Part shown: positions 7,968-35,412 of the stretch, one piece after another | Position numbering within the stretch: the first letter of the stretch is position 1 | Layout of the letters: each line of letters starts with the position of its first letter | IMG/VR virus record: IMGVR_UViG_3300046820_000683 | Coordinates: 1-48,304 of that record | Direction: 5' to 3' (one strand) | Source: a virus | Length of the DNA stretch: 48,304 nucleotides | The notes under the pieces: generated by a model | The model's database searches: none | Told to the model about the DNA's origin: nothing | What the model saw: the letters and a program-made list of their open reading frames with translations, nothing else | Position numbers and translations under genes: made by a program

Positions 7968-7975
7968 TATTTATT
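7968..7975 (-). promoter_or_regulatory. Weak candidate late promoter before cassette A'
   Basis: Minus-strand AATAAATA overlaps the stop of the upstream propeller gene and lies 4 bases from the ATG at 7963. It differs from T4 TATAAATA by one base, but the spacing leaves almost no leader, so it may be simple AT-rich sequence. Confidence 0.2.
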
Positions 7976-9451: not shown

Positions 9452-9452
9452 T

Positions 9453-9932
9453 TTATAATCCGTTTCCAAAAACTGTTGATAAACCATATATCACTGATGG
9501 TGATGTGCTTCCGCCTCCACCAGCATTTGTGGTTATCGCCGATGATGAGATATCGACCCATGCGTTTGATGTACCATCATTTATATATTGATACAAAATA
9601 TCTTCTGTTACTGAATACCATTGGTCACCAACGTTTGCTGTTACTGGTGTTGTATTGGATGCTTTATATATTAAACCACTGGCACCACCCGTATTTGCTT
9701 TTATGAAGGCTGCGTTTGCTTGAATGTAAGCAGAATTCGCCTGTGTTCTGGCAAAGGTGTCTGTTGGTGACAAAGTATTTGCCACATTGTAGACTGTATT
9801 TGCCTGCAAGAATGCTGACTGTGCATAACCCAATACATCAACACCAGAAACCACGACCGTATTGGCCGACAATTGGTCAACTGAGTAGTCCAGTGTTTGG
9901 TCAATGTTTGTTGGTTGTATTTTTGTTGTCAT
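9453..9932 (-). CDS. Short fibre shaft (cassette B')
   Basis: A 159-residue protein that reads as a miniature of the 1504-residue shaft at 16629-21143. Its N-terminus MTTKIQPTNIDQTLDYSVDQ parallels MPITQLQPFNLDSTKDYSLA, and both continue with LSANTVVVSG/VSASNIVATG. It has only about six alanine-core heptads around TDTFARTQANSAYIQANAAF, then a beta module with GDQWYSVTEDILYQYIND, and a C-terminal end VIYGLSTVFGNGL that parallels the AMTIVFGG end of the long shaft. The next gene is the SYE-tail protein in both loci. The reduced length suggests either a short-reach fibre or a contracted repeat array. Confidence 0.75.
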   Translation of the reverse strand: MTTKIQPTNIDQTLDYSVDQLSANTVVVSGVDVLGYAQSAFLQANTVYNVANTLSPTDTFARTQANSAYIQANAAFIKANTGGASGLIYKASNTTPVTANVGDQWYSVTEDILYQYINDGTSNAWVDISSSAITTNAGGGGSTSPSVIYGLSTVFGNGL

Positions 9933-16628: not shown

Positions 16629-19600
16629 TTATCCTCCGAATACTATTGTCATGGCAATAGCTTTACCTAATGTTGTTCCAGTGTTTGCTTTTGCAAATGA
16701 TAGATTGGCTTGCGTTCTTGCAAATTCATCTGTTGATGGGCCAAGCTCTCTGATTTGTATTTTTACACCACTTACTGGTGCTCCTCCAACAAATGATAAT
16801 GTTGTTCCTGAAATTGTATAGTCTGTTGTTGGTGTTTGTACGACACCGTTTTCAGTGACAATAACATTATTAACATTCGTATTTGCTGTTACTGTGTAAT
16901 TAGTTGTTGTACCATCACCAGTATAATTTCTAGTTACAAAGAATCCGTTTGGACTGGATCCACCTGTACCACCAGTATTTGCTTGACTGAAAGCCGCATT
17001 TGCCTGTATGAATGCTGCGTTTGCTTGTGTTCTTGCCCAAGAATCTGAACCAGAACCACCGCCAGTATTTGCCTGAGCGTATGCAGCATTAGCCTGTATG
17101 AATGCAGCGTTAGCTTGTAAGAAAGCGGCAACAACTGTCGTTGAAGAACCTGCGTTGTTGGCTGCCAAGAATGCTGAGTTAGCATAAGAACTTGCTGCAG
17201 ATGCATTTGTGAAAGCATTGTTTGCAACCGTGAATGCCGAATTGGCATATGATCCAGCAGTTACTGCCTTTGAATCAGCTGTTGCGGCATTAGTTGTTGC
17301 AGTATTTGCTTGTAGATACGCAGAGTTGGCATATTGACCTGCTGTTACGGCTTTACTATCTGCTGTTGCAGCATTGGTTACACCAGTATTTGCCTGAATA
17401 AAGGCACCGTTAGCATACAAGGATGCACCAGCGGCATTATTTGTGGCAGTATTAGCAACACCAAACGCCGAATTGGCATATGATCCAGCAGTTACTGCCT
17501 TTGAATCAGCTGTTGCGGCATTAGTTGTTGCAGTATTTGCCTGAGAATATGCAGAGTTAGCATATGAACCGGCTGTGACTGCTTTACCATCCGCAGTTGA
17601 TGCATTAGTTGTTGCAGTATTGGCTTGGACATAAGCACTATTTGCATATGATCCAGCAGTTACTGCCTTTGAATCAGCTGTTGCGGCATTAGTTGTTGCA
17701 GTATTGGCTTGAACATAAGCACTATTCGCATATGATCCAGCTGTAACAGCTTTACTATCTGCCGTTGCTGCATTGGTGGTGGCCGTATTTGCCTGAGAGT
17801 ATGCAGAGTTAGCATAATTTCCAGCTGTAACAGCTTTACTATCTGCCGTTGCTGCATTAGTATTTGCCGTTGCGGCATTAGTTGTTGCTGTATTTGCCTG
17901 AATAAATGCACCATTGGCATATACACCAGCTGAAGTTGCTGTTGTTAATGCAGTATTGGCTGTGGTGAAACTGGCGTTTGAAAATTCAAATGGTGCCGCA
18001 GCAGTATTTTGTATTGTATTGTCTACAAAAACAATTGGCTTTGTTGTCTTAACTCTTGCAGCATTAATTAACAATGCTGGGTTTGTTTTGCCTTGTGCAA
18101 AACCACCAACATACACCTCAACTGCATTATGTACACCAGTAGAATCTGTTGCTAGAATTAAGTTGCCGGATGTTTGTGCACCATTTGGTGCCGACATGAA
18201 CACATAACCTTCGTTACGACCAGTTACATTATATGTTGCGTCTGTGAAGTTATTGGATGTGATACCAACATCAATCCAACCGGCCGCATCTGCTCCATTA
18301 TTAGGATATGCCACCAAGTCAGCAGAAGATGATGTGCCGTTTGCGGTGTTATAGATGTATGTTTGAATGTAACCAGAAGAATTGCCCAACGATCCAATAA
18401 TTGGATTGGTTGCACCACCTAAGGCACTACCTGTATTGGAACCTACAAATGCAACAGTGCCGATGTTTATTGAACCTACGGTTTCAAGACCACCTGACCT
18501 AATAATATCATATTGTGCATTTGCAAAATCTACTGTTGATGTTGGTTCTGCAACAACATTACTGAAAAACTTCCAACGACCATCTAATCGGTCACGAACA
18601 ACACCAGTGTGTTGATTTCTACCTTGTACAAATGCACCAACAAGACCAATGTCTACTGTATTACCAGAATTTCCGTTTGCAAGAAATATTATCGAATCTG
18701 ATAATGTTAAATTGTTTGATGTGATAGATGTGGAATTTCCACCAAATGTAATGTTACCTGATACATTTAAGTTTTGTGAAATGGTAACAGAACCAGTAAT
18801 TGTACCACCAGACTGCACAAATGTTCTACCAATATTTGCAGCAGTAAATGCCGAGTTGGCCTGAATGAACGCACCATCTGTACGCAAAGATGTTGAGTTG
18901 GATGTGTTGTATGCGGCATTAGCCTGAATGAAAGCACCATTAGCATACAATGATGCACCTGCCGCATTGGTTGTGGATGTATTGGCCTGTATAAATGCTG
19001 CGTTGGCATATAATCCAGCAGAATTTGCCTTGTCAAACGCACCTTGAGCAAGAACTCTTGCTGTTGTATCTGTTGCACCACCACTACCACCAGTCAACAA
19101 ATCACTACCAACACCTGCACTTGCAGCACTCAAATCAATGTATGCACCACGAGCACTACCACCTTGTTCAAAGAATCTTAACTTGTTTTGATAAACGTCA
19201 ATTGTTACACCAGTGCCATTTAATGTGGTGTTAGTTATTGCTTTAGCTAATAATATTTCACCACCTTCGTCACCGCCAGTGGCCAATGCCGTCAATTTAC
19301 CTGTTAAGGTTAAATCACCATTGAATGTTCCTGTTGTATTTGCAAGTGCATTGTTTGCCTTTGTAAATGCTGAGTTCGCATAAGAACTTGCAGCCAAAGC
19401 ATTTGTTGTGGCAGTGTTTGCTTGAATGTATGCTGAGTTGGCATAAGAGCTGGCTGCCAACGCATTAGTTGTTGCTGTATTTGCTTGGGTGTATGCAGAG
19501 TTGGCATATGATCCTGCCGAAGTTGCATTTGTAACAGCTGCATTAGCTTGCGTAAATGCGCCGTTGGCATATACACCGGCGGAAGTTGCCTTAGAATCTG

Positions 19601-21143
19601 CTGCTGCAGCATTGGTTAAAGCAGTATTTGCCACCAAAAAACCAGAGTTTGCATATGAACTGGCTGCTAATGCATTAGTTGTGGCTGTGTTTGCTTGGGT
19701 GTATGCTGAGTTGGCATAAGAACCAGCAGTTACTGCCTTACCATCAGCAACAGAAGCATTAGTTGTTGCTGTATTTGCTTGGGTGTATGCTGAGTTAGCA
19801 TAAGAACCGGCAGTTACTGCTTTACTATCAGCTGTTGCAGCATTACTATTTGATGTATTAGCTTGTAAGAAAGCCGAGTTGGCATATGAACTGACTGCTA
19901 ATGCATTTGTTGTTGCTGTGTTTGCCTGATTGTATGCTGAGTTAGCATATGAACCAGCTGTTACTGCCTTACCATCAGCGACAGATGCGTTAGTTGTGGC
20001 TGTATTTGCTTTATCAAAAGCAGCATTAGAATTGGTTCTTGCAAAAGGATCAATTTGCGTGTCACTTACAATTGTATTTGCAAATGCGAAAGCTGCATTA
20101 GCATGTAAGAAGGCTGAGTTTGCATAAGAACCAGATGTTACTGCCTTACTGTCAGCTGTTGTTGCACTGGTGTTTGCTGTGCCTGCTAAATCATATGCAC
20201 TATTGGCTTGAATGAATGCCGCATTCGCCTGCAAGAAAGCAGCAACCACTGTTGTACTTGAACCTGCATTATTCGCAGCAGTAAAGGCTGCATTAGCATA
20301 TGAGCCTGCTGATGTGGCATATACTGTTGCAGTATTTGCCTGTGTGTATGCAGAGTTAGCATATGAACCAGCACTTACAGCCTTAGAGTCTGCTGTCGAA
20401 GCATTAGTTGTTGCAATATTTGCTTGATTGTATGCTGCATTTGCAGAAGTCCAGGCAGCAGTCGCAGTTGCTCTTGCTAGTCCGTCTGTTGCAGTACCAC
20501 CTGACAATGCATTTGCAAATTCAAACGCAGCGTTCGCTTGTATAAATGCAGCATTTGCATACAAACCTGCACCTATTGCATTTGTATTTGCAACAGTTAT
20601 GTTTGTGTTCTGTGTTAGGTTTACACCTTGCAACGCAGTGATGTTGGTTGCATTTGTGTTTGCTGCAATAAAGGCACCATTAGCATATAAAGAAGCACCG
20701 GCAGCATTAGTTGTTGCTGTATTTGCTTGTGTATATGCTGTATTGGCATATGTGCCTGTTACATTTTGTGATGCATATGCCGAATTTGCCTGAATGAAGG
20801 AACCGTTAGCATATAAAGAAGCACCTGCAGCATTAGTTGTTGATGTATTTGCTTGTGTATATGATGCGTTAGCCTGTATAAACGCACCGTTGGCATAGTC
20901 ACCTGCTGATGATGAACTACTTGCTGGGTTGTTTACGAATGTTAAATTGCCTGCACCATCAGTTTGTAGTAACTGACCAGAACTGCCACCATAAATATGT
21001 AAATTTCCTGCTGCACCTAAAGAAACATTTGCACCAGAAAAAATAATATTTCCTGTTGCAACAATATTACTAGCACTAACGTTTGCTAATGAATAGTCTT
21101 TGGTGCTATCTAAGTTAAACGGTTGTAATTGGGTGATTGGCAT
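16629..21143 (-). CDS. Long tail-fibre shaft with alanine-core heptad arrays (cassette B)
   Basis: A 1504-residue fibre shaft. The N-terminal anchor MPITQLQPFNLDSTKDYSLA matches cassette B'. Most of the length is heptads with Ala at positions 3 and 6 (SYANSAY, TQANTAT, TNAATAD, SKAVTAG), which predicts a multimeric coiled coil with a small-residue core. Arrays restart at DPFAR, DGLAR, DTTAR, DSWAR and DEFAR motifs. Beta modules interrupt them: a LSDSIIFLANGN...VDIGLVG module (about 794-881), an NEGYVFMSAPNG module (about 914-1014) and a GDGTTTNYTV module (about 1398-1457). The protein ends AMTIVFGG. Oligomeric state and attachment site are inferred; upstream lies a CTAAATA promoter candidate. 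Confidence 0.88.
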   Translation of the reverse strand: MPITQLQPFNLDSTKDYSLANVSASNIVATGNIIFSGANVSLGAAGNLHIYGGSSGQLLQTDGAGNLTFVNNPASSSSSAGDYANGAFIQANASYTQANTSTTNAAGASLYANGSFIQANSAYASQNVTGTYANTAYTQANTATTNAAGASLYANGAFIAANTNATNITALQGVNLTQNTNITVANTNAIGAGLYANAAFIQANAAFEFANALSGGTATDGLARATATAAWTSANAAYNQANIATTNASTADSKAVSAGSYANSAYTQANTATVYATSAGSYANAAFTAANNAGSSTTVVAAFLQANAAFIQANSAYDLAGTANTSATTADSKAVTSGSYANSAFLHANAAFAFANTIVSDTQIDPFARTNSNAAFDKANTATTNASVADGKAVTAGSYANSAYNQANTATTNALAVSSYANSAFLQANTSNSNAATADSKAVTAGSYANSAYTQANTATTNASVADGKAVTAGSYANSAYTQANTATTNALAASSYANSGFLVANTALTNAAAADSKATSAGVYANGAFTQANAAVTNATSAGSYANSAYTQANTATTNALAASSYANSAYIQANTATTNALAASSYANSAFTKANNALANTTGTFNGDLTLTGKLTALATGGDEGGEILLAKAITNTTLNGTGVTIDVYQNKLRFFEQGGSARGAYIDLSAASAGVGSDLLTGGSGGATDTTARVLAQGAFDKANSAGLYANAAFIQANTSTTNAAGASLYANGAFIQANAAYNTSNSTSLRTDGAFIQANSAFTAANIGRTFVQSGGTITGSVTISQNLNVSGNITFGGNSTSITSNNLTLSDSIIFLANGNSGNTVDIGLVGAFVQGRNQHTGVVRDRLDGRWKFFSNVVAEPTSTVDFANAQYDIIRSGGLETVGSINIGTVAFVGSNTGSALGGATNPIIGSLGNSSGYIQTYIYNTANGTSSSADLVAYPNNGADAAGWIDVGITSNNFTDATYNVTGRNEGYVFMSAPNGAQTSGNLILATDSTGVHNAVEVYVGGFAQGKTNPALLINAARVKTTKPIVFVDNTIQNTAAAPFEFSNASFTTANTALTTATSAGVYANGAFIQANTATTNAATANTNAATADSKAVTAGNYANSAYSQANTATTNAATADSKAVTAGSYANSAYVQANTATTNAATADSKAVTAGSYANSAYVQANTATTNASTADGKAVTAGSYANSAYSQANTATTNAATADSKAVTAGSYANSAFGVANTATNNAAGASLYANGAFIQANTGVTNAATADSKAVTAGQYANSAYLQANTATTNAATADSKAVTAGSYANSAFTVANNAFTNASAASSYANSAFLAANNAGSSTTVVAAFLQANAAFIQANAAYAQANTGGGSGSDSWARTQANAAFIQANAAFSQANTGGTGGSSPNGFFVTRNYTGDGTTTNYTVTANTNVNNVIVTENGVVQTPTTDYTISGTTLSFVGGAPVSGVKIQIRELGPSTDEFARTQANLSFAKANTGTTLGKAIAMTIVFGG
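17230..17910 (-). repeat. Tandem 84-bp coding repeats (28-residue shaft unit), about eight copies
   Basis: The unit encodes four heptads in the order SYANSAY, TQANTAT, TNAATAD, SKAVTAG. Several copies are near-identical in DNA: the minus-strand equivalents of GATCCAGCAGTTACTGCCTT recur near 17251, 17483 and 17650. High identity implies recent unequal recombination or conversion. A related, more diverged array lies at about 19370-20030 in the same gene. Confidence 0.8.
19370..20030 (-). repeat. Second array of 28-residue shaft units
   Basis: Diverged copies of the 84-bp shaft repeat encode heptads such as SYANSAY, TQANTAT, TNALAAS and ADGKAVT. The array lies between the DTTAR and DPFAR motifs of the same protein and is less uniform in DNA than the 17230-17910 array. 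Confidence 0.7.
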
Positions 21144-21167
21144 TTATGTGTTCTTATAGTTATCTAA

Positions 21168-21174
21168 TATTTAG
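21168..21174 (-). promoter_or_regulatory. Candidate late promoter before cassette B
   Basis: Minus-strand CTAAATA followed by TTAGATAA lies just after the stop of the upstream adhesin gene and 24 bases before the ATG at 21143. The 32-base gap has no strong Shine-Dalgarno. It matches the CTAAATA cores at 5252 and 28809. Confidence 0.4.
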
Positions 21175-21175
21175 T

Positions 21176-24100
21176 TTACTCGTTACCCGTTCTTGTTGAG
21201 GGGAATCTTCTTTGGTCACCTGGCCATATTAATCTTACTGCTCCATCACCACCATAACGAGCATATGTGCCTCCACCGCCACCATATGATGTACCAGAAC
21301 CACCCGAACCAGCAGTAGCATTGTTTGCATAATAAGTGCTGCCCGTTATAGTCCAACCTGAACCCGCTACACCATTAGCACCTTGACCTAACAATCCAAC
21401 GCCACCACCTTGGCCGCCAACTGGACGTGTACCATTAGCTGTGCCGCCGCCACCGCCACCACCGCCGCCTGATCCGTTTGTTGCTGCGTTTGTGTTACTA
21501 TAACCGCCACTGCCGCCGGTGCCTGAGTAACCACCTGCGCCGCCGCCACCTGATGCATAATTTTGAATTGTTACGCCGCCACTGCCGCCGTTGCCGCCGC
21601 CGTCACCAACAAAAGTTCCACCCCAAGAACCGCCGGCACCACCGAAACCACCAGCATTACCAGCAACTGTTGTTGCAGAAATAAAGAATGAATTTGTACT
21701 AGGTAAAGAAGCAGTATTAGCAACCCATTCACCACGGCGACCAACTTGAATTGTGTATGATTGACCTGGAACAACTGGAATATTATTTTTATATCCTAAA
21801 CCAGCACCACCGCCGGCATACGCTGGATATGAAAATTGGCTAGATGCACCGGTTCCACCTGCACCAACACAAACAGCAGAAACAGAATATACACCTTCTG
21901 GACACACCCATGTGTATGTTCCAAATGAAGTGAATTCTGCTTGTCCAATAGGTCTTGTATCTTCAGTTCTTGTGTTGGCGTCATATCTTCTAAGTGTACC
22001 AGGCCACATGATACGAACTGCACCAATGCCACCATAACCACCAGAGTTTAATAACCTATAATCACCACCGCCTGCGCCACCACCATAGTCACTACCTGTG
22101 TTTGTGCCATAAAGTTCTACAAGTTCACCTCTGTTTGAACCTGTGCCACCTTGCATACCAGGATTTCCTGCTGGAATATAAGAAGAACCTGATCCTGATG
22201 CACCCTTTCCTTGCAGTCCTACGCCACCGCCACCACCGCCTTTGCCGGTCGTTGTTGAATCAGCTGATGGAGCGCCACCGCCGCCGCCACCACTAGTACC
22301 ACCACCAGGAGCACCAGCCAAGGTATTACCACCTGTACCACCGTTACCAGTATACCCTGCAGCACCGCCGCCACCAGCTTTGTAATTCCCTGTTGATGAA
22401 GAACCACCAACACCGCCACTGTAACCATATTGTCCTATTCTAAATGAACCGCCTGGTACCGATGATGTGTAGAATGATGTCGGATTTGCACCAGAGTTTG
22501 CTCTTAGAATTACTGAGTTTGCATAACTCACACTCGTTCCATTTGATGAAACGTTATAACCATGTCTTGGTTTGTCAATGTATATACTTAATTGTTGTCC
22601 TGGTTCAACTCTGAAGTTGTTGATGAATGCTGTTGCACCACCACTGCCACCAGAGAATGAAGAATAACCATTGGCCTCAATTACTGTACTGCCACCACAA
22701 CCAACAGCCATAGCACTGATTGAATAAACATTTGCTGGAACAGTCCATGTTGTTTGAACAGTATTGAATGAATTTCCACCATTTTCTCCAACAAAAACTT
22801 CTTGGCCTGATGGTGGAGCAATTGACATTATCAATGTGTTTGCTGAGGATTGACCAACAGAATCAACTGTTCTTATCGTGAATGCGGTTTCTGGATAACC
22901 TGATGTTGCGTTGCCTGAAAGTATACCTGTGTTTGCATTAAATGTTATATTTGTGTTTGCTGGTATAGATGGTGTTATTGAGTATGTTACTGGCCCAACA
23001 TTACCTGAGATTGATACGGGTTGTAAAGATACAGCATAACCCATTTGTAGGTTTGCATATTGAATATTTTGTGTTACAGTATGTGTTTCCAAATTAGATG
23101 TTGGAAATGTTCTAAAATCGGAAGGCCATACAATACGAACTGCACCGTTTGCACCAGCAGAATAATAAAGTTGGCCACCGCCACCGCCGCCACCATATCT
23201 ACCACCAATGTTGAAAATTGTTGTGCCTATCGTGTTAGCAACTAAAGGTAAACCGTTTGAACCTGGTTGACCTGCTCTCAATGGATCGTTCATATTCAGA
23301 CCGGTCAAACCAGCAACACCTGATATTCCTCTACCATATAAACCTACACCACCACCTGCTGCGCCGCCGACTGTACTTGCACCTGCGCCGCCACCGCCTG
23401 CACCGCCAACACCAGCCGTGCCGTTTCCACCTGAAGTTGAATTGGCAACACCACCGTCACCACCTCTATTAATTTCAGTTAAATCGAATGGATAAGTTGC
23501 TTCTGTTCTTACATTATTACCTACTGTGGTGGTTGGAATTGTAATTGTAATATTGTTACCTGAATTATCTTTAAATGTACTATCTTGACATGTTAATAAT
23601 ACAGTATTTGTTATAGCAACTAAAGGTTCTTCTGATGGAATAAAATTACTTGAATATAATGCTCTTCCTTTTACCAATCTAAGATTGGAAATGTGTCCCA
23701 CGAATGAATTAGCATTTCCGGTACCGATATTTCCTATTGAAATAAAATCTGATGATGTGCTGAACGAACCTGTATAAGTTTTTGTATCTTCTGCTATGCC
23801 ATTTTTAAAAAGAGTGAAAGTATTTGCTGAACGTTGAAGTGCAACATGAGTCCAGGTATTGGAAGCGTACCACGTTGTGCCTATCAACAACGGTTCAAGA
23901 CTGTTAGCGCTATCGGGTATAACAACACCTAGATAACCAGTATAATTTTGTCCAAGACTAATTCTCCATTTTCCTGAATGTGCAAAAAAATTAGCACTAG
24001 TAACTAAAGTGGGGCCGGCTGCTGAATTTACTGTAAAACCACGAAGATTGTACCAAAATTCTAATGTAAAATCGGAACGTCCTAGAGAAAGACTATCGTT

Positions 24101-24721
24101 CGTTGATGTTCTTAATACATCACTTACTCCATCAAAGTATGTGCTATACCAGTTTGCAATTTCCGAACTTGTATAACCATAACCACCAGCTCCACCGGCA
24201 CCTAAGCCGCCATTAAAAGTTGTTACTCCCTGTGGCGCACCTGCGTTTCCTCCTGGTCCACCACCATCACCAATAAAAATTCGGCCACCAAGTCCTGATT
24301 GTGATATACCCTGAACAGTTGATGGACCTGTAGCAGTTCTTCCAAATTGACCTCTCTCAGCGAAAACAGTTGATGTGTTTCCGAACCAACTATTAGTTGC
24401 TAACACACGTGTTCCAGTTGGAGCGGTGTAACCACCTTGTCCGACTTGTAAATTGTATGTTAGTCCTGGAACAACAGTTACATTATTTTTGTATGCTAAG
24501 GCGCCGCCTCCTCCACCTGTTGCTGAATTGGTGGCACCACCTAAACCACCACCACCGCCAGCAATACAAACTACTGACACAGAATAAACACCAGCTGGAC
24601 AGGTCCATGTGTTTGGACCTACTCCTGTGTATATTGCTTCACCTACTATTGGATACTCAAATGCTTTTTGTATAGAAGCTGCAACAATTGTTGGTGAAAA
24701 TATTGAACTTATTCTTTCCAT
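21176..24721 (-). CDS. Glycine-rich tip adhesin with embedded LamG domain (cassette A)
   Basis: A predicted receptor-binding tip of 1181 residues. The start is placed at MERISSIFSP (24721), not the in-frame Met at 24760, because this follows the upstream stop by two bases and matches MSRISSITGG of its paralogue. Three glycine-rich domains each open with a W-T-C-P-x-G-V-like strand (TWTCPAGVYSVSVVCIAGGG, TWTVPANVYSISAMAVG, TWVCPEGVYSVSAVCVG) and close with a VRIVWP, VRIMWPG or VRLIWPG strand. A LamG-type domain (about 190-413, YFDGVSDVLRTS to LVKGRALYSS) lies inside the first glycine-rich domain. An Ig-like domain sits near 547-640. Polyglycine-sandwich folding is an inference. It follows the shaft whose FYHSS domain is shared with cassette A'. 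Confidence 0.85.
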   Translation of the reverse strand: MERISSIFSPTIVAASIQKAFEYPIVGEAIYTGVGPNTWTCPAGVYSVSVVCIAGGGGGLGGATNSATGGGGGALAYKNNVTVVPGLTYNLQVGQGGYTAPTGTRVLATNSWFGNTSTVFAERGQFGRTATGPSTVQGISQSGLGGRIFIGDGGGPGGNAGAPQGVTTFNGGLGAGGAGGYGYTSSEIANWYSTYFDGVSDVLRTSTNDSLSLGRSDFTLEFWYNLRGFTVNSAAGPTLVTSANFFAHSGKWRISLGQNYTGYLGVVIPDSANSLEPLLIGTTWYASNTWTHVALQRSANTFTLFKNGIAEDTKTYTGSFSTSSDFISIGNIGTGNANSFVGHISNLRLVKGRALYSSNFIPSEEPLVAITNTVLLTCQDSTFKDNSGNNITITIPTTTVGNNVRTEATYPFDLTEINRGGDGGVANSTSGGNGTAGVGGAGGGGAGASTVGGAAGGGVGLYGRGISGVAGLTGLNMNDPLRAGQPGSNGLPLVANTIGTTIFNIGGRYGGGGGGGQLYYSAGANGAVRIVWPSDFRTFPTSNLETHTVTQNIQYANLQMGYAVSLQPVSISGNVGPVTYSITPSIPANTNITFNANTGILSGNATSGYPETAFTIRTVDSVGQSSANTLIMSIAPPSGQEVFVGENGGNSFNTVQTTWTVPANVYSISAMAVGCGGSTVIEANGYSSFSGGSGGATAFINNFRVEPGQQLSIYIDKPRHGYNVSSNGTSVSYANSVILRANSGANPTSFYTSSVPGGSFRIGQYGYSGGVGGSSSTGNYKAGGGGAAGYTGNGGTGGNTLAGAPGGGTSGGGGGGAPSADSTTTGKGGGGGGVGLQGKGASGSGSSYIPAGNPGMQGGTGSNRGELVELYGTNTGSDYGGGAGGGDYRLLNSGGYGGIGAVRIMWPGTLRRYDANTRTEDTRPIGQAEFTSFGTYTWVCPEGVYSVSAVCVGAGGTGASSQFSYPAYAGGGAGLGYKNNIPVVPGQSYTIQVGRRGEWVANTASLPSTNSFFISATTVAGNAGGFGGAGGSWGGTFVGDGGGNGGSGGVTIQNYASGGGGAGGYSGTGGSGGYSNTNAATNGSGGGGGGGGGTANGTRPVGGQGGGVGLLGQGANGVAGSGWTITGSTYYANNATAGSGGSGTSYGGGGGTYARYGGDGAVRLIWPGDQRRFPSTRTGNE

Positions 24722-24723
24722 AA

Positions 24724-27700
24724 TTAACCGTAAGTAGCCATTTGACCAGTAACGACCCATGCGTTACCAACTCTTATCAATGTTAGTGTTTCTATTTGTG
24801 TTTTATTTGGATATAATGTTGGTGTTTGATTATTTAGCCACTTAATTGTTTGTGAAGCTCCATCAATTTGCACCACACTTGCATAGAATGGTGAATTGCC
24901 TTGATCCAGAATCAAAGCAACAGAAGTGATTCTTTCATTTGTCGTTGGCACATTTGTAAAGTTTGCGGTCATATTTGCTGCAATAGAACTATGATAGAAA
25001 ATTGTACCTTCATTTAAGTTGTGTACAACTGTACCTGTACCACCTGTCTTTGTGGACACCAGTTCTGTTGTTTCAGTTAATGTTGTCCAACCAGAAACGA
25101 ATAAACTACCTGCATATACACTAGATGCAACAACATTTGATGAAGAAATGGATGTTGATATTGAATTGACTGCTGCATATGCAGAGTTAGCCTGTATAAA
25201 TGCACCGTTGGCATATAATGAAGCTGAGTTTGCCACAGCAAATGCAGAGTTAGCATATGAACCTGCTGATACTGCTTTAGAGTCAGCTGTTGATGCATTT
25301 GTTACGCCAGTATTTGCTTGTGTGAATGCTGAGTTAGCATATGTGCCTGTCGTATTTTGACTTGAGAAGGCGGCATTTGCCTGTATGAAAGCACCATTAG
25401 CATACAACGATGCACCAGCACCATCATTTGCTGCGGTATTTGCTCTAGAGAAAGCAGAGTTGGCGTATGAACCAGCACTTATTGCATTACTATCTGCTGT
25501 GTTTGCCCGTATAAATGCCGCATTTGCTTGTACAAAAGCACCATTTGCATATAAGGATGGACCTGCTGCTGCACCAATTGTTGAGTTTGCCTGATTGAAA
25601 GCAGAATTTGCATGTAAGAATGATGCGTTTGAATTGTCATTTGCAAACTGTATAGAAATGGTAGCTTCACTGAAGTAAGCTTCATTGACCAAAGGCACAG
25701 CAGTGGTGATTTCTATTTTGGCACCGTTTGCTGGTGGACTAGAGAATGTTACAGTCTTATTTACAAGAGTGAAGTCGCTCTTTAATACTGTTGCGCCGTT
25801 GTAGTTAATGGTAATATTGTTTGCACCAACGGGAGCATCAACCAAAACAAAACTTGTAGTTGTACCATCACCAACAAAACTATCAACCTTGTATGCAAGT
25901 GTTGTTAAGAAGTTTGAACCAATCGCAATGTTGTTTGCAAAAGCAAATGCTGCTTGTGCTAGAATTGTGCCTGAATTTGCTTGTGAGTATGCAGCATTTG
26001 CATAAACACCCGTAGTATTTTGACTTGAATATGCAGCATTAGCCTGTATAAAGGCACCGTTAGCATACAGAGATGCCCCAGCGGCATTATTGGTTGCTGT
26101 ATTTGCCTGAGTGTAAGAGTTGTTTGCATATGTACCGGTTACATTCTGTGATTCATATGCAGAGTTTGCCTTTAAGAATGCAGCATTAGCCTTTTCAAAT
26201 GCGAACGCAGCAGTTACACCTGCATTAGCAGTATCATACGCACCTTGTGCCAATATAAATGCTGCATTAGCTCTTTCGAAAGCTGAGTTGGCATATGTAC
26301 CTGTTGTATTCTGACTGAAGTATGCAGAATTTGCCTTAATAAAAGAACCGTTTGCGTAAGTTGCGGCTGAGTTTGCTTGGTCATATGCTGAGTTGGCATA
26401 TGTACCTGTTGTATTCTGACTGAAGTATGCAGAATTTGCCTTAATAAAAGAACCGTTTGCATATATACCTGCCCCCAAAGCATCTGCAACGGCAACAGTT
26501 GATAACGTATATGCAGCGTTTGCGGCAATAAATGCAGAGTTGGCATATGAACCTGCTGAGTTTGCAGCAGTAAATGCTGAATTTGCATATGATGCAGCAG
26601 AGTTTGCCTGTTCAAATGCAGCTGAACCTATTGTTTGACCAATCAAACCCGCTTCTAATGCACTAGATATTTCTGTGTTTTGTGATGAATTTACGCCTGC
26701 TATGAGTGCTAAGTTAGCGACAGCTGATGATGCATTTTCTGGTGTGAATGTTAATGCATTTGTAACATCTGCTGATGATAATGTAACTGCACCACTTCTA
26801 GTGTTGAATGTAGTAACTGGTGTTTGATTACCAATAGAAGTGACACGACCATAAGCATCAACACTAATTTCTGGGTAACTATATGTGCCACCAATTACAC
26901 CTGATGATGCGAGGTCGATTGATAAGTTACCTGTTGTTGCACTTTGTGTAAGTCTGTTTGTCGAAACGACAGTTACGGACTGTACGACTGCATTTGCCCT
27001 AATGAATGCTGCATTGGCATGTGTGTGAATTGTATTTGCATAATCAAATAAGTTTACACCTTTGATAACAGCAGTATTTGATTCTAATCCACCAACTTTT
27101 AATGTGCCATATGTTGCTTGACCAAAATTGATTGTTGTGGTTGGTTCATCTGTTACACCATCAAACAGTTTCCATTTATCATCACTGTGGTCACGAGCAA
27201 GACCAGTGTGTTTGTATGTACCGTCACTGTAAGCACCAGTGAAGCCAATGTCAACCAAGTCGGTTGGATTACCGTCTGCAAGATAAATTAGTGAATCTGT
27301 TAGTGTCAGGTTATTGGAAGTAATAGTGGTTGCATTACCACCCAAATACAAGTTACCAGATACACGCAAGTCTTGGGAAATAACCACATTGCCAGTAACA
27401 ACCAATGCGTTTGCACTTGTCGTATTACTTACAGTCAAAACACCAGTAATAGTATCACCAGACTTGCTTACTTTACCTGAAATGAGAGTTTGTAAGTATG
27501 TGTTGGCTGTATCAGTATATGTAATAACGTTTACACCATCTTTTGTGGTGAAACTGTTTGCAACCAAAGGACGATAGACTTCTAATTTATCACCGTTCTT
27601 AAATCTTGCAACCTCATCATAACCAGAACCTTGAATAAAAACAATATCCGCATAAGCTGATGAACCTGTTGTACCAAAGTATACATTACCACCATAGTTT

Positions 27701-28773
27701 TGACCTGGATTGCCAACAACCATCATGTAACCATCGTTTGGTTTTACGAAACTAAATGCATTAGGTGTGGTGTTGTCATAATTACTACCAGCAAAACCAA
27801 AGTCTGCATAGTTAATATTGTCAGTACCATTATCAGCAGTCAAAACAAAGTCGCTTGTACCTTTATCTGATAGGTTTTGTTGGTTAACTTGTGAATAAAA
27901 ATCTGATGTGCCAGTAAACTGTGCAATCAGGTTAGGTAATATTTGGTATGAACCTGTACCAACAGCAAGTCTTTGGAAGACATTCGCTTGACCAGGTACA
28001 GTCAATGAACCTGCAACAGTAATTGATGTTGTGTTCGCTAATGCTGCGTTTGCTTTTGCATATGCAGAGTTTGCTTGTAGTTGACCCGCTGCAGCACTTG
28101 CTCTGGCAAAATCATCTGCTGCAGAACCAAGTGATAAATTATTTGCAAATGCAAATGCAGATTCAGCGTAAGTGCGAACATATGCAATGTCTGTATTTTG
28201 TTTAGAATCAACACCTTGTATATTAGTAATATTCAACGCATTTGTATTTGCTTGGTCAAAAGCCTTGCCTGCAAATATTAATGTGTTGGTGATATTAGTA
28301 TTTTGTGTTAAATTTACACCTTGCAGTACGGTGATATTTTGTGTGTTGTTGTTTGCAGTAACGAATGACGCATTTGCTTGTGTTAAGGCTCCGTTAGCAT
28401 ACAAAGATGCACTAGCTGCGTTAGATATTGCTGTGTTTGCCTGAGTAAAAGCAGAATTGGCATACACACCGGTTGTATTTTGACTGGCATATGCAGAGTT
28501 TGCTCTCAGAAAGGATGCGTTTGAGTAAACAAATGGCGCCGCAGCAGTTACTTGAATTGTACTGTCGCCTGTAAATCTTACCTCTGGAAATTCACCAAGA
28601 GTTGCAGCACGTGTGGCAATTAAATTGACCGAGTTATTTCCATCTAGGAAGAATAACTTACCATCCATTATGTTAATTGCTAATTCACCGGGAATGAGAG
28701 TACTTCTCAGTGGTTGATTGCCACCGGTATTTGAATAGTATAACTGAATCGGGGTTGAATTGGCTTGTGCCAT
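24724..28773 (-). CDS. Long tail-fibre shaft with FYHSS C-terminal domain (cassette A)
   Basis: A 1349-residue fibre shaft. The N-terminal adaptor (about 1-55) contains TPIQLYYSNTGGNQPLRSTL and GELAINIMDGKLFFLD, the GELA-type anchor widespread in phage fibres. Alanine-core heptads fill much of the rest, with a DDFAR motif, QGVNLTQNTNI insertions and polar SQNTTGVYAN units. Beta modules are a KPNDGYMMVVG domain (about 271-394), a LTDSLIYLADGN...VDIGFTG domain (about 481-557) and GDGTTTSFVL (about 961-1017). The C-terminal domain (about 1245-1349, IFYHSSIAANMTANFTNV) is paralogous to that of 7208-7963. It carries an exact 74-bp internal repeat. Upstream are CTAAATA and an AAGG Shine-Dalgarno 5 bases from the ATG. 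Confidence 0.88.
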   Translation of the reverse strand: MAQANSTPIQLYYSNTGGNQPLRSTLIPGELAINIMDGKLFFLDGNNSVNLIATRAATLGEFPEVRFTGDSTIQVTAAAPFVYSNASFLRANSAYASQNTTGVYANSAFTQANTAISNAASASLYANGALTQANASFVTANNNTQNITVLQGVNLTQNTNITNTLIFAGKAFDQANTNALNITNIQGVDSKQNTDIAYVRTYAESAFAFANNLSLGSAADDFARASAAAGQLQANSAYAKANAALANTTSITVAGSLTVPGQANVFQRLAVGTGSYQILPNLIAQFTGTSDFYSQVNQQNLSDKGTSDFVLTADNGTDNINYADFGFAGSNYDNTTPNAFSFVKPNDGYMMVVGNPGQNYGGNVYFGTTGSSAYADIVFIQGSGYDEVARFKNGDKLEVYRPLVANSFTTKDGVNVITYTDTANTYLQTLISGKVSKSGDTITGVLTVSNTTSANALVVTGNVVISQDLRVSGNLYLGGNATTITSNNLTLTDSLIYLADGNPTDLVDIGFTGAYSDGTYKHTGLARDHSDDKWKLFDGVTDEPTTTINFGQATYGTLKVGGLESNTAVIKGVNLFDYANTIHTHANAAFIRANAVVQSVTVVSTNRLTQSATTGNLSIDLASSGVIGGTYSYPEISVDAYGRVTSIGNQTPVTTFNTRSGAVTLSSADVTNALTFTPENASSAVANLALIAGVNSSQNTEISSALEAGLIGQTIGSAAFEQANSAASYANSAFTAANSAGSYANSAFIAANAAYTLSTVAVADALGAGIYANGSFIKANSAYFSQNTTGTYANSAYDQANSAATYANGSFIKANSAYFSQNTTGTYANSAFERANAAFILAQGAYDTANAGVTAAFAFEKANAAFLKANSAYESQNVTGTYANNSYTQANTATNNAAGASLYANGAFIQANAAYSSQNTTGVYANAAYSQANSGTILAQAAFAFANNIAIGSNFLTTLAYKVDSFVGDGTTTSFVLVDAPVGANNITINYNGATVLKSDFTLVNKTVTFSSPPANGAKIEITTAVPLVNEAYFSEATISIQFANDNSNASFLHANSAFNQANSTIGAAAGPSLYANGAFVQANAAFIRANTADSNAISAGSYANSAFSRANTAANDGAGASLYANGAFIQANAAFSSQNTTGTYANSAFTQANTGVTNASTADSKAVSAGSYANSAFAVANSASLYANGAFIQANSAYAAVNSISTSISSSNVVASSVYAGSLFVSGWTTLTETTELVSTKTGGTGTVVHNLNEGTIFYHSSIAANMTANFTNVPTTNERITSVALILDQGNSPFYASVVQIDGASQTIKWLNNQTPTLYPNKTQIETLTLIRVGNAWVVTGQMATYG
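26282..26355 (-). repeat. Exact 74-bp direct repeat, copy 1
   Basis: Identical to 26387-26460 by direct reading, with starts offset by 105 bp (35 codons), so the frame is preserved. It encodes heptad units around SAYFSQNTTGTYANSA. Identity without synonymous change points to a recent in-frame duplication. Confidence 0.85.
26387..26460 (-). repeat. Exact 74-bp direct repeat, copy 2
   Basis: Second copy of the repeat at 26282-26355. The intervening 31 bases encode a different heptad segment. Confidence 0.85.
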
Positions 28774-28802
28774 TGTTACCTTACTCTTAAAATATTATCT
28801 TA

Positions 28803-28809
28803 TATTTAG
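28803..28809 (-). promoter_or_regulatory. Candidate late promoter before cassette A
   Basis: Minus-strand CTAAATA (then TAAGATAATA) overlaps the stop of the 825-residue gene and lies 29 bases before the ATG at 28773. AAGG at 28782-28779 gives a Shine-Dalgarno 5 bases from the start. Confidence 0.4.
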
Positions 28810-31283
28810 AACATACCACCAGAAATCAAATTGGCCTGGAGTGTACCACCCAAAATTATATTACCTGTTGCGCCGATACCGCCATCAACGACAATTGTAC
28901 CTGATGTGGTGTTAGTGGAAGCAATCTGTGAATTGGCCACGATTGCACCAAAATTACCTAGACTTGAACCTGCTGTACCCGATACAGTGAATGATGCACC
29001 AGTATCACTTGCAAGAGAAATTGCACCACCTTCTGCGGAAATTGATGCGCCACCCAAGTCAATTGTGTTGCCAGCAATCCACAATTTTTTCCATCGTCTT
29101 GTGGGAGAACCCAAATCATATGTTACGTTAGCAGCAGGCAAGAAATGTGTTGCGTATGTATTTGCCTGTAACGTGGTTTGACCCTGTACTGTCAATGCAC
29201 CTGTTATGGTACCACCAGACAGTGGCAATGCGTTGTTTGCAACCACAAATGCAGCATTCGCCTGTACAAATGCACCATTAGCATACAAAGCACCAGAGTT
29301 TGCAGTCGCATATCCTGCTTGCGAAAAGGTGGTTAGATTAGTAATTGTGGTATTTTGAAATGTATTGATGTTTGTCAACTCAATTACATTTGAACCGTTG
29401 GTGTTCGCAGCATTGAATGCTGCTTGTGCATGGCTCTGTGCAGCATTTGCTCTTAAGAATGCACCATTGGCGTATAAACCAGCTGAGTTTGCCGCAGCAT
29501 ATGCAGAGTTGGCATACGTACCAGTTACATTCTGACTTGTATATGATGCATTAGCCTGTATAAACGCACCATTGGCATACAAACTGGCAGACACAGAGTT
29601 GTTTGCGGTTGTATTTGCAAAACTATATACGGCATTAGCCTGTATAAACGCACCATTGGCATATAATCCAGCTGATGTGGCATTTGCGGATACAGTATTT
29701 GAACTTGTGAATGCTGCGTTAGCTCTTGCAAAGGCACTATTTGCATATAAACTTGCTGATGTTACCGTATTTGCAGTAATGAAAGCCGCATTGGCCTGTA
29801 CGAATGCACCGTTGGAATACAGTTGTGACGAATCTGCTTTGAAAAAGGCAACGTTCGCAGTATCTCTTGCAAACTGGTCTGTTGTTACTGGTGTGGCACC
29901 AGTATTTGCCTTATCAAATGCAGCATTTGCATGTGCATATGCTCTGTTGGCACTTATTTGAGCTGTTGCACCTGTGTCATACGCAACACCAGTTAAAATT
30001 TCAACGTTGTTCGCCGCAGCAAATGCACTATTTGCTCTAGTGAATGCTGAGTTTGCATAAGAGCCAGCTACAGTTATGTTATTGGCATTTGTATTGCCTG
30101 ATGCAAACGCTGCATTGGCTTGTATAAATGCAGATACTGCTAATGTACCACCAGAAGATGCTGCATTGGCAGCTGCATATGCTGAATTGGCATAAGAACT
30201 AGCTGCCAACGCATTGGTTATTGCAGTGTTCGCCTGTGTGAATGCTGCGTTCGACTGTACAAATGCACCGTTGGCATATAAACCAGCACTTGTAGCATTA
30301 TTGGATGCTGTATTTGCCTGATTAAAAGAAGATGTTATGAACGGTTGTGCATTAATACCACCAACAAATATGTTATTTGCAACAACATTGCCCTTAAAGG
30401 TAGATGCATATACGTTTGCATATGCAAATGATGGGTTTGCAATATTAATTAGGTTGTTGGATGTTATCCTTGCAGTATAACCTTGAAAGAATAAAAATTC
30501 TTTTAAATTAGGATCACGGATTATACCTGCTGCGACATTTCCTGTGCCGGTATTATATTGACCAACAATACCAATGTCAACAGCATCTGTTGTGTTGTTG
30601 TTTGCAAGGTGAATTAAAGAATCGTTTACATATACATCGGTTGCAGTAACAGTAAATGTGTTACCTAAAACTGTCAATGAACCTGTTACAGAAAGGTCAC
30701 TTGTGACATTCAAAGAACCTGTTATTGTACCACCAGTATTTGCGATTGCACTATTTGCCTTGTTGAATGCTGCACCAGCAAAAGTGTTTACCGCAGAAAT
30801 AGCACCGTTTTGGTACGCATCAATATTGGATAATTCTATTACACCTGCGCCTGCACTGTTGGCAGCCGCAAATGCTGCATTGGCCTGAACGAAAGCTGAT
30901 TGAGCAACAGCGCCTGTGTTGGCCGCATTGAAAGCTGCCTGTGCTAATGTTGTTGCTGTGTTTGCTTGTGTGTAACCGGCATTCGCATGTCTGAATGATG
31001 AGTTGGCCTGTAAGAAAGCTGAATTAACTGTTGCGCTTGTGCCTGCCGCATTAGCGGTATCATATGCAAGTTGTGCAACGTTTGCTGCTGAGTTGGCTCT
31101 ATTGTATGCACCTATTGTTAGGCCAACAAAGTTATTACCACCAATTGCACGAACTTCCTGTGCAGTATTGCCAATATAGAGTGTATCATTTACGAAAGAA
31201 TAAGCTAACTGACCGTCAAACAGGAATGCCGGTTTAGTATTTGCATAAGACCTTAATATCTGTATGGTACTGGTATTTGCCAT
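28806..31283 (-). CDS. Tail-fibre shaft with GELA-type anchor and RRWKKLW domain
   Basis: An 825-residue fibre protein. The N-terminus (TIQILRSYANTKPAFLFDGQ, then LAYSFVNDTLYIG and IGG) is the exT4 fibre anchor module related to that of 24724-28773. Alanine-core heptads follow, with QNGAI and QNTTI breaks near residues 160 and 640. A VNDSLIHLANNN...VDIGIVG module occupies about 194-261 and a TTDQFAR restart lies near residue 470. The C-terminal part (about 700-825) contains YDLGSPTRRWKKLWIAGNTI and DLGGASIS, a module common at the distal part of fibre subunits, and ends LISGGMF. It may be a proximal shaft to which later-encoded fibres attach (inference). Its ATG overlaps the stop of the preceding small gene. 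Confidence 0.85.
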   Translation of the reverse strand: MANTSTIQILRSYANTKPAFLFDGQLAYSFVNDTLYIGNTAQEVRAIGGNNFVGLTIGAYNRANSAANVAQLAYDTANAAGTSATVNSAFLQANSSFRHANAGYTQANTATTLAQAAFNAANTGAVAQSAFVQANAAFAAANSAGAGVIELSNIDAYQNGAISAVNTFAGAAFNKANSAIANTGGTITGSLNVTSDLSVTGSLTVLGNTFTVTATDVYVNDSLIHLANNNTTDAVDIGIVGQYNTGTGNVAAGIIRDPNLKEFLFFQGYTARITSNNLINIANPSFAYANVYASTFKGNVVANNIFVGGINAQPFITSSFNQANTASNNATSAGLYANGAFVQSNAAFTQANTAITNALAASSYANSAYAAANAASSGGTLAVSAFIQANAAFASGNTNANNITVAGSYANSAFTRANSAFAAANNVEILTGVAYDTGATAQISANRAYAHANAAFDKANTGATPVTTDQFARDTANVAFFKADSSQLYSNGAFVQANAAFITANTVTSASLYANSAFARANAAFTSSNTVSANATSAGLYANGAFIQANAVYSFANTTANNSVSASLYANGAFIQANASYTSQNVTGTYANSAYAAANSAGLYANGAFLRANAAQSHAQAAFNAANTNGSNVIELTNINTFQNTTITNLTTFSQAGYATANSGALYANGAFVQANAAFVVANNALPLSGGTITGALTVQGQTTLQANTYATHFLPAANVTYDLGSPTRRWKKLWIAGNTIDLGGASISAEGGAISLASDTGASFTVSGTAGSSLGNFGAIVANSQIASTNTTSGTIVVDGGIGATGNIILGGTLQANLISGGMF

Positions 31284-31505: not shown

Positions 31506-31859
31506 TTAGAACCTTGTTACTCTAGGTGAAACATCCATGGTGCCTTCCAATACACGAATGACTGTATTTGCAGTTCCAGGTACACCAGGAATAGAAATAG
31601 CCGCATCATATAGGTAACGACCTGGTGCAATGTTTGCGGTTGTTGATGAGGAAAGGGACAGTGCAATTGTTCCTGATGTTACATCAATCGTGCTTGTGAA
31701 TTCCGCAGTTGTGTTTGCAGAATAATAAGACTTTCTTATCTGACTTTTGGCTGTTGCGCCAGTCAAATCATAGTTGTTGCCATATACATCATCCAGTGCA
31801 ATTGAAATTTCAAATGTAGCACCTTGTTCTAAGTATAAATTTTGATATCCTGCGGCCAT
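31506..31859 (-). CDS. Conserved 117-residue structural accessory protein
   Basis: A beta-rich protein starting MAAGYQNLYLEQGATFEISI, then YDLTGATAKSQIRKSYYSAN, SGTIALSLSSSTTANIAPGR and YLYDAAISI, ending DVSPRVTRF. The pattern EQGATF...DLTGxTAxxQxRKSYYS...TIxLSL...TAxIxxGRYxYD is typical of a small phage structural family found near tail and baseplate genes. Its role is not established, but a small Ig-like or baseplate-decoration fold is plausible. It starts the cluster of three genes that leads into the 825-residue shaft, behind a candidate late promoter ATAAATACC and an AAGG Shine-Dalgarno 6 bases from the ATG. Confidence 0.65.
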   Translation of the reverse strand: MAAGYQNLYLEQGATFEISIALDDVYGNNYDLTGATAKSQIRKSYYSANTTAEFTSTIDVTSGTIALSLSSSTTANIAPGRYLYDAAISIPGVPGTANTVIRVLEGTMDVSPRVTRF

Positions 31860-32623: not shown

Positions 32624-35412
32624 TTAATTTGTCCTTTTAACACTTCAACTTCAGATTTCAATTCCTTGATTGCTTCGATGATAAGTGGAACCAATCTCTC
32701 ATAACGAACTGTTAAATAATTTTCATCAATTGGTGCTGGCGCTACTGCTTCAGGTTGGACTGATTGCACTTTCTGTGCAGACACACCAACTTCACGGCCT
32801 TTTGATTCCAAACCAAGGCCTTTTGCAACATCGTTTAGTTCATAATAGAAACCTGTCAGTTGTTCGATTTTATCCAATGCGTTTTCAATTTTACCTAGAT
32901 TGTTTTTCAATCTTTCGTCTGAAACATAAGCGGTAATATTTCCTGTGGCCTTAATTTCACCACCAGTTTGTGAAACTGTACCACCACCAACCCACAGAGC
33001 ATTCATTTGATAATTGTTATCGGTCTTTAACGCATTAGCAGTAGATGCGGTTGTTGCTGATGATGCACTACCCGCTGAGTCTGCATAACCTACATGTGTG
33101 TCAGCATGTTCTGTGTCGCCATTGTAACCATATAATCTCCAACGAGCTCCCGTCCAATATGTTTGTACAGAATAATTACTATCATTATCACGGCGATACA
33201 ACCTGTATGGTCCAGGTCTAGTAGCACTTGTGTACATACCAGCTTGGCCTGTAATACCACTTGCAGGTACCGCAGCAGCTACACTTGCTGTACCTGCATT
33301 TCCTGTAATGCTGTGTGCGTATGTACCACCATCTCCCAAACGATTCGTTACATATGCGGTCGATGCAGCAACTGTACTACTCGTAGCGTTTGTTGCTGTT
33401 GGTACATTAACTGTTCCAGTGAAGGTTGGTGATGCTAATGTGGCTTTTCTAGTCTCAACGTCTTGCAAGGCCAACTGAATGGTGTTTGCTGATGTAACGA
33501 TTCCACCAAACGGAGAAGTGAAAGGAATATTATTGGCAAAGTAAGCATAAGATGTAAATGCATCAACTTCAATCATCAAAGATGAACCAGAAGGTATGGT
33601 AGAACCTAATGTTACGGAAGTTGAATTTGTTTCCGTATAGTCTGAAGGATACTGACGAACACCATCAATATAAACTCTTAACTGACCTGCACCTGGTGTG
33701 TATGTTGGTGTACTAAACACCGTTTGGTTTGTATTAACGGTTGGGAAAGAACGTGTTGTGTTAATTCTGGTACCAGGTTGTGTACCGCCACCGCCACCAC
33801 CAGAACCACCTGCTGCCCAATAATAAGTACCGACACCACCTGTTGCAAGAACATAACCAGATGGAACACCCGAAGCACTAGGCAACAAGTTGATTAATGC
33901 AGCAGTAGAAGAAGAACCGCCAGTACCACCTTGTGTTACTGCCAATGGATTAGATAGACTTAGACCTGCAAATGTTGGTGTTGCAGATGTTCTTAGGTCT
34001 TGCGATGTACTGATGAAGGCTGTATTGCCACCTGGTGTTGAGATTACAACACCGTTATTACTTGCAAGGGTTATACCACCATTTGTTGCTGTGATTCCTG
34101 AACCTGTTGTTCCTAAAATGGCATTAGCTGAGGTGTTTGCTCTTGAGAATGCTGCGTTTGCTTGACTAAATGCTGGTGCAATCTGTGGTGCCACATTGTT
34201 TGCAGCGGCAAATGCACCGTTAGCTTGTTCAAATGCTGAGTTGGCATAAGAGCCAGCAGAACCTACCGCTGCCTGCAAGAATGTATTTGCCTCAGTGATA
34301 ATATTATTCAATGTGTTTGCTACTCTTGCGGTAGCAACATCTGTTGTACTTGTTGATGTTAATGTGTCATTGATATATTCGTTTGTTACAACTCTATGAA
34401 ATGTATTTGATGTGACATTTTTAATGTCCCAATAACCTAGAGGTTGATTCCAACGGAACTCTGCATTAGCACCACTAGTACCACGATTTACAATAAATGA
34501 ACCAAATTGAGCAGTAGCTGAACCAGCATTAATCGTAAATACATTTGAGTTGTATACTGTTTGTCCATTGATAACGAAGTTGCCACCAACACTCAACTGT
34601 CCATTTGTTTGTACATTGTTGATGAACATTGTTGCACTGTTAGCATCAATTAAACCGGTTACATTAGCACTTGGTGTAGAAACAGATTGTGCATAGAATG
34701 TTCTGGCATTTAATGTTTGTGTATTGACTGATGAGTTTGCTTGTAATGTTGTGATGTATGCAATAGGTAATGTTGTAGTATTTGCATAAAGTATATCAAA
34801 GTCAGCTCTTGCTGTTGGTCCAAATACTGAATTTGTCACTACAATTCGTGGTGATACAACGTCAATGTTTGCATAGTAATGATCCGCAAAAGATGAACCA
34901 TCAATATACACATTCTGTGTGACTGATACATTGTTTGCAACACGAACAGTACCTGTGGCTGTTACTGAGTATAATTGTGAATCACCTTCAACAGTAGAAT
35001 TTCCTTTAACTGTGGTATTTCCAGTTACATTTAAATTGCGACCAACATTTGCTGTATTGGCAACTGTCAGGCCTGTATTTGCACCTAAAGCAAGTAGAGG
35101 ACCACCAATATTTGCTTGACCTGTGTTGGTTAAACCTAGTGATGTGTTGGTAAAATAAACTTGACCATCAACTCTTAGGTTGTTTTGCACATATACAGAA
35201 GAACCTACGCCTTGCGATTGTAATTGACCACCAAAGATTGCGTTGTTTGCAACTTGTAGACCAAGAGAGTTATCATTTAAGAATAATGTTCCTGTGGATT
35301 TGACATAGTTGTTTGCAGCAAGGTCGTTGTTCTCTTTTGCAAGAGTGTTTGTGTTAACAACCCATTCACCAAAGGTGTTTGCATAACTTAAAATTGAAAC
35401 TGTATTAGCCAT
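32620..35412 (-). CDS. Tail fibre with C-terminal S74 intramolecular chaperone
   Basis: A 930-residue trimeric-type fibre. The N-terminal two thirds alternate beta modules (for example FGGQLQSQGVGSSVYVQNNL and DGQVYFTNTSLGLTNTGQAN) with a few alanine-core heptads near residues 380-425. A GGGGGG linker leads into QLRVYIDGVRQYPSDYTE and PTFTGTVNVPTATNATSST modules. The last 100 residues are a peptidase S74 domain: SDERLKNN places the nucleophile at Ser831 and Lys836, the S-x4-K dyad spacing of endosialidase chaperones, followed by GVSAQKVQ and a C-terminal helix ending EALKELKSEV-like (IKELKSEVEVLKGQIK). After trimer folding the domain should cleave itself off before Ser831 (family knowledge). 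This is the only S74 domain seen in the locus. Confidence 0.9.
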   Translation of the reverse strand: MANTVSILSYANTFGEWVVNTNTLAKENNDLAANNYVKSTGTLFLNDNSLGLQVANNAIFGGQLQSQGVGSSVYVQNNLRVDGQVYFTNTSLGLTNTGQANIGGPLLALGANTGLTVANTANVGRNLNVTGNTTVKGNSTVEGDSQLYSVTATGTVRVANNVSVTQNVYIDGSSFADHYYANIDVVSPRIVVTNSVFGPTARADFDILYANTTTLPIAYITTLQANSSVNTQTLNARTFYAQSVSTPSANVTGLIDANSATMFINNVQTNGQLSVGGNFVINGQTVYNSNVFTINAGSATAQFGSFIVNRGTSGANAEFRWNQPLGYWDIKNVTSNTFHRVVTNEYINDTLTSTSTTDVATARVANTLNNIITEANTFLQAAVGSAGSYANSAFEQANGAFAAANNVAPQIAPAFSQANAAFSRANTSANAILGTTGSGITATNGGITLASNNGVVISTPGGNTAFISTSQDLRTSATPTFAGLSLSNPLAVTQGGTGGSSSTAALINLLPSASGVPSGYVLATGGVGTYYWAAGGSGGGGGGTQPGTRINTTRSFPTVNTNQTVFSTPTYTPGAGQLRVYIDGVRQYPSDYTETNSTSVTLGSTIPSGSSLMIEVDAFTSYAYFANNIPFTSPFGGIVTSANTIQLALQDVETRKATLASPTFTGTVNVPTATNATSSTVAASTAYVTNRLGDGGTYAHSITGNAGTASVAAAVPASGITGQAGMYTSATRPGPYRLYRRDNDSNYSVQTYWTGARWRLYGYNGDTEHADTHVGYADSAGSASSATTASTANALKTDNNYQMNALWVGGGTVSQTGGEIKATGNITAYVSDERLKNNLGKIENALDKIEQLTGFYYELNDVAKGLGLESKGREVGVSAQKVQSVQPEAVAPAPIDENYLTVRYERLVPLIIEAIKELKSEVEVLKGQIK

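Follow-up and report, generated by a model that had tools for sequence, protein, structure and literature searches.

Alanine-heptad arrays in seven genes of an uncultured T4-related phage as likely alpha-helical shafts of tail fibres

Several fibre genes of the phage studied here encode long arrays of alanine-rich heptads, which raises the question of what these arrays fold into and what part they play in the fibres. The window, a virus record of 48.3 kb (IMG/VR record IMGVR_UViG_3300046820_000683, 48,304 nucleotides), carries T4-related phage tail and baseplate genes, and the phage is contractile-tailed, T4-related, aquatic and uncultured. Many minus-strand fibre genes sit between the sheath stabiliser and baseplate wedge genes:

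2022-3002: T4 gp15-type tail sheath stabiliser
41895-43274: gp8-like baseplate wedge protein
45145-47970: baseplate wedge protein

An HNH endonuclease-like gene (3889-4449, minus strand; just under the Pfam cut-off), possibly a homing endonuclease, lies between neck/tail completion genes, and a WD40-like beta-propeller protein with a tandem repeat of ~138 bp is encoded among the fibre genes (7974-9101, minus strand).

Ladders, in which the two alanines of each heptad stand three residues apart, were scored against composition-preserving shuffles (the ladder scan), and arrays were detected a second time with a heptad profile HMM over the window and its relatives. Both place alanine ladders, at heptad positions 3 and 6, in seven minus-strand genes (7208-7963, 9453-9932, 16629-21143, 24724-28773, 28806-31283, 32620-35412 and 43285-45141), where the sequence-only reading had counted six. 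That reading took 16629-31283 as the array region; the span does hold three array genes, but gene 21176-24760 within it has no ladder by the scan, and genes 7208-7963, 9453-9932, 32620-35412 and 43285-45141 lie outside it. Gene 21176-24760 (minus strand) is large and glycine-rich with a laminin-G/concanavalin-like lectin domain, and its product is a candidate receptor-binding protein. The features, all on the minus strand, are given below, with residue numbers referring to the gene named above them or in the same line.

16629..21143: array gene 1, 1504 aa; small beta-type domains separate several Ala-heptad arrays; PHROG tail fibre profiles
20655..20909: array, residues 79-163 (ladder scan, profile HMM)
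20073..20444: arrays, residues 234-357, in two registers (ladder scan, profile HMM)
20028..20051: joint motif DPFARTNS, residues 365-372 (joint pattern search)
19353..20042: array, residues 368-597 (ladder 375-599, 62/65 core Ala)
18834..19064: array, residues 694-770 (ladder scan, profile HMM)
17145..17978: longest array, residues 1056-1333 (ladder 1062-1331, 77/78 core Ala)
16965..17144: short arrays, residues 1334-1393, after a +2 register shift (AGSSTTVVAAFLQAN) and a DSWAR joint
24724..28773: array gene 2, 1349 aa (ladder scan, profile HMM)
25933..26619: arrays, residues 719-947 (ladder scan, profile HMM)
25177..25629: array, residues 1049-1199 (ladder scan, profile HMM)
28806..31283: array gene 3, 825 aa; arrays short and degenerate; follows the LtfC-like gene directly
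29400..29870: arrays, residues 472-628 (ladder scan, profile HMM)
31506..31859: LtfC-like protein (Pfam PF23926, 31.9 bits, cut-off 27; PHROG L-shaped tail fibre assembly)
7208..7963: mini-fibre, 251 aa; joint, 73-residue array and C-terminal beta head (AF2 with alignment)
7625..7843: mini-fibre array, residues 41-113 (ladder scan, profile HMM, AF2)
7211..7579: mini-fibre C-terminal head, residues 129-251; common to many phage tail fibre proteins
9684..9827: short arrays, residues 36-83 of gene 9453-9932 (ladder scan, profile HMM)
34129..34260: short array, residues 385-428 of gene 32620-35412 (ladder scan, profile HMM)
32743..32922: terminal Peptidase_S74 intramolecular chaperone of gene 32620-35412 (domain search)
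44179..44550: array, residues 198-321 of gene 43285-45141 (ladder scan, profile HMM, Ala period)

Two small paralogous proteins, 43% identical and of unknown family, are encoded directly downstream of array genes (9101-9487 after 9453-9932 and 16262-16624 after 16629-21143, all on the minus strand), and each fibre gene with its small protein appears to be one copy of a duplicated pair.

The claim of alanine at heptad positions 3 and 6 holds for gene 16629-21143, in which 816 of 1504 residues lie in ladders against 28.4 after shuffling; its top ladder score is 75.5, and none of 50 shuffles exceeded 9. Its longest ladder (residues 1062-1331) keeps a single register over 270 residues with one core exception. 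Gene 24724-28773 has 400 residues in ladders (3.6 shuffled) and the more degenerate gene 28806-31283 has 317 (9.2 shuffled). A length of 42 nm had been estimated for 280 residues at 0.15 nm per residue, and the arithmetic is right if the run is helical; relatives carry single-register ladders of up to ~390 residues at 88-89% Ala, or ~58 nm on the same proviso. Codons were compared among 22 28-residue units of gene 16629-21143. Synonymous differences reached 60% at position 3 and 52% at position 6, against non-synonymous differences of 2% and 13%, and at positions 1 and 7 the residue itself had changed in more than half of the comparisons. Since alanine is kept while its codons differ synonymously, the ladder is maintained by purifying selection, beyond what recent duplication alone would leave.

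The rest of the heptad is also patterned. In the profile of the window and its relatives, position 4 (b) is Asn in 72% and position 5 (c) is Thr or Ser in 74%, so that A-N-(S/T)-A forms a contiguous block conserved in each heptad; e, f and g are variable, with aromatics at e and g. The composition is high in Asn, Thr, Ser and Gly and low in charge. The strong conservation of Asn at b and Thr/Ser at c is found although these positions of a coiled coil should face solvent. A proline-bearing heptad, NTP(T/S)HVANSAALYANGAF, recurs in the arrays at 7625-7843 and 44179-44550 (both minus strand) and in relatives, and leaves the array register unbroken.

Do these arrays form helices or strands? Alanine periodicity within them gives one sharp peak at 3.50 residues and power near nil at 2.0. 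When AlphaFold2 (AF2) was given a 53-sequence alignment for gene 7208-7963, which carries a short array, the monomer was modelled as one continuous helix over residues 39-116 (block-mean pLDDT 78-93 over residues 41-110), and the beta head behind it was also modelled with confidence. Gap lengths between related arrays of the window and 65 distinct IMG/VR relatives are multiples of 7 in 305 of 351 cases inside arrays and in 109 of 233 outside them in the same comparison; the pairs are non-independent and aligners favour in-register gaps, and the more telling part is that 241 of the gaps inside arrays are odd multiples against 16 multiples of 28. Taken together, period, indels, codons and the aligned AF2 model favour a heptad-packed helix, and the arrays are predicted to be alpha-helical. 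Three points stand against the helix: a beta model obtained from a single sequence, the conservation at b and c, and the abundance of Asn, Thr, Ser and Gly, residues that form helices poorly.

The beta model came from the longest array of gene 16629-21143, for which AF2 without an alignment placed strands every ~28 residues. It would suit a beta-solenoid or other beta-repeat with a 28-residue rung, of which the heptads would be a by-product, and the contiguous A-N-(S/T)-A block points the same way. We rejected this model on the indel and spacing data, on its low confidence (mean pLDDT 56) and on the documented tendency of AF2 to invent beta-solenoids where a sequence repeats (PMC11795689). Successive YAN motifs are mostly 21 residues apart, then 28, 14 and 35, with no constant rung, and single-heptad indels dominate; on these sequence patterns, a fixed-rung solenoid does not permit such variation, while a heptad coil does. 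The 3-4-3-4 spacing of alanine would alternate between the sides of a strand, and a helix is what AF2 returns once it has a real alignment to work from, so that a beta-repeat is very unlikely. As this was the sole beta model, the predictions returned no confident beta or disordered fold for the arrays. Least probable of all is that they are mostly disordered, flexible linkers with a ladder that reflects only repeat expansion: low charge and abundant Thr, Asn, Ser and Gly would be in keeping with linkers, but alanine outlasts its codons, register is held for 270 residues with a single exception and the helix predicted with an alignment is confident. The coiled coil with an all-alanine core that had been proposed is backed in part, as far as the helix is concerned (period, heptad indels, lack of a constant 14- or 28-residue rung, AF2), and the helices may associate through the alanine positions. 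The number of chains in the bundle is a separate matter. One array gene carries a terminal S74 chaperone, a domain that acts as a trimer. The phage relatives for which there are data are likewise trimers: cryo-EM shows the shaft of DT57C LtfA (T5-like, PDB 8HQZ) leaving the tail as a three-helix coiled coil (PMC10713586), and CD, SEC/MALLS and EM have shown the PCoil domains in E. coli prophage fibres to be helical and trimeric (PMC3368898). Both lines weigh against helices arranged in twos or fours, antiparallel as in honeybee silk, or in mixed bundles of different fibre proteins. Alanine-rich cores are known in tetramers such as bee silk (PMC12284834), and a pattern common to seven genes of one phage would allow mixed bundles; we nevertheless regard these arrangements as unlikely.

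We consider it likely that the arrays are alpha-helical, alanine-packed rods that form the shafts of several different tail fibres in this T4-related phage. Each array would be one long alpha-helix, and the helices, most likely, by analogy, three identical parallel chains, would make a thin, stiff rod by packing through their alanine stripe (heptad positions a and d). Shafts would lengthen and shorten in evolution one heptad at a time. Short joints would restart the helix and reset its register; those that open an array often read D-x-aromatic-(A/V)-R. Small beta domains between arrays or at the C-termini may trimerise the chain or bind the host. A bolder reading, to which we give a low probability, is that near-pure alanine-core, nearly uncharged rods with Asn at b, Ser/Thr at c and aromatics at e and g make up a distinct coiled-coil packing class, in which the superhelix is very narrow and the b and c residues make contacts or build a regular polar lattice; at least seven fibre proteins of one phage would share it as their shaft module.

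Arrays keep one register internally and lose it at the junctions from one to the next, both in the window proteins and in 65 relatives, where breaks of short spacing occur once per ~200 array residues. With a constant frame over as many as 270 residues, the frequent loss of register that would have told against the heptad reading was not seen. Many arrays start with a D-x-(W/Y/F)-(A/V)-R-x-x-A-N joint, in which R lands at position e. The search pattern left D free but required R/K with a bulky residue two positions ahead and A/S/T-N/Q following, and D was found three before A/V in 107 of 115 distinct cases. The joints may be read as the canonical beta-layer of a trimeric coiled coil, defined by three extended residues ahead of position e and K/R at e; in the aligned AF2 monomer of gene 7208-7963 the helix starts at residue 39, ahead of the joint R. 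Between neighbouring arrays the register shifts by +2 in 27, +3 in 26 and +4 in 1 of 90 distinct contexts.

The mini-fibre head is found in phage fibre proteins whose upstream regions differ widely, and several viral matches to it bear the name collagen repeat proteins, so that the shaft behaves as an exchangeable module. The C-terminal domain of gene 24724-28773 resembles this head, as read off the sequence. A Foldseek search of the mini-fibre model gave no significant match in the PDB; against viral models, the matches covered ~130-150 columns, the size of the head.

The LtfC-like gene (31506-31859) lies directly upstream of array gene 28806-31283, and in 10 of the 12 relatives listed, a set with several nearly identical members, the LtfC-like gene is followed by an array gene no more than 1.5 kb away. 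The LtfC-like protein probably anchors at least one of the array fibres, as a lateral fibre, to the tail. LtfC was originally described in T5-like siphophages, and its PF23926 gene occurs here in a contractile-tailed, T4-related phage.

The contrast that had been drawn with the beta-spiral shafts of T4 is fair, but an alanine ladder is not new among phages, being shared by lambda Stf and DT57C LtfA. Lambda Stf (orf-401) has an A..A...A ladder in one register over 201 residues at 84% Ala, with one 42-residue window at 100% Ala and an Ala period of 3.48; it differs in being ~21% charged (33/160), against ~5% (14/270) in the window array, and in having no A-N-(S/T)-A signature. DT57C LtfA has 11 of 12 ladder alanines in its best 42 residues, and ltfC lies directly upstream of ltfA, the same order as that of the LtfC-like gene and array gene 28806-31283. 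Unlike the window arrays, LtfA is charged and less regular, with 76% Ala in its best long run; it belongs to a T5-like phage and not a contractile-tailed, T4-related one, and it ends in an S74 chaperone, which in the window is on gene 32620-35412, away from the LtfC-like gene. PCoil, from the collagen-like fibres EPclA/B, shares Ala-rich heptads with a loose A-X-X-A/S-X-X-S pattern and lengths that vary by sevens, but is Ser/Glu-rich and adjoins collagen, whereas the window arrays are Asn/Thr-rich with aromatics at e and g and no collagen. Outside phages, all-alanine cores reduce the superhelix radius in an Ala-mutant Lpp-56 trimer and in the honeybee silk tetramer (PMC12284834); these are unrelated proteins, and the silk is an antiparallel heterotetramer. 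Small core residues over at least 100 residues, lengths in multiples of seven and a predicted helix are shared with lambda Stf, PCoil and LtfA, and the arrays are probably fibre shafts of the lambda-Stf/LtfA kind, a kind established by relatives with experiments. What is new here is a purer, less charged Ala-heptad shaft spread over seven genes of one phage.

In the viral collection (IMG/VR), 395 of 462 pattern matches encode array relatives. None was confirmed in 84,980 prokaryote genomes, where no prophage home was found, and the PDB searched directly with the arrays gave no relatives. Against named phages, tblastn and blastn of an array gene gave a single match, outside the arrays, which low-complexity masking probably hides from such searches. 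The fibres of Methylophilales phage Melnitz-3 and MW202545 are without an Ala ladder. Neither phage_tail_N (PF08400), which matches lambda, nor Phage_fiber_2 matches the seven array proteins; Pfam Alanine_zipper (PF11839) reaches 15.9 bits, below its cut-off of 23.1, for gene 7208-7963 and matches none of the other array genes.

The Ala-heptad rod of lambda- and T5-type fibres would thus also be used, in purer form, by uncultured aquatic T4-related phages, and in the window phage one kind of shaft would be common to many fibre genes. Because structure prediction from a single sequence can take such repeats for beta-solenoids, database entries may misread shafts of this type. Being natural, long and regular, the arrays would be good material for learning how an alanine-only core holds a long rod together without charges.
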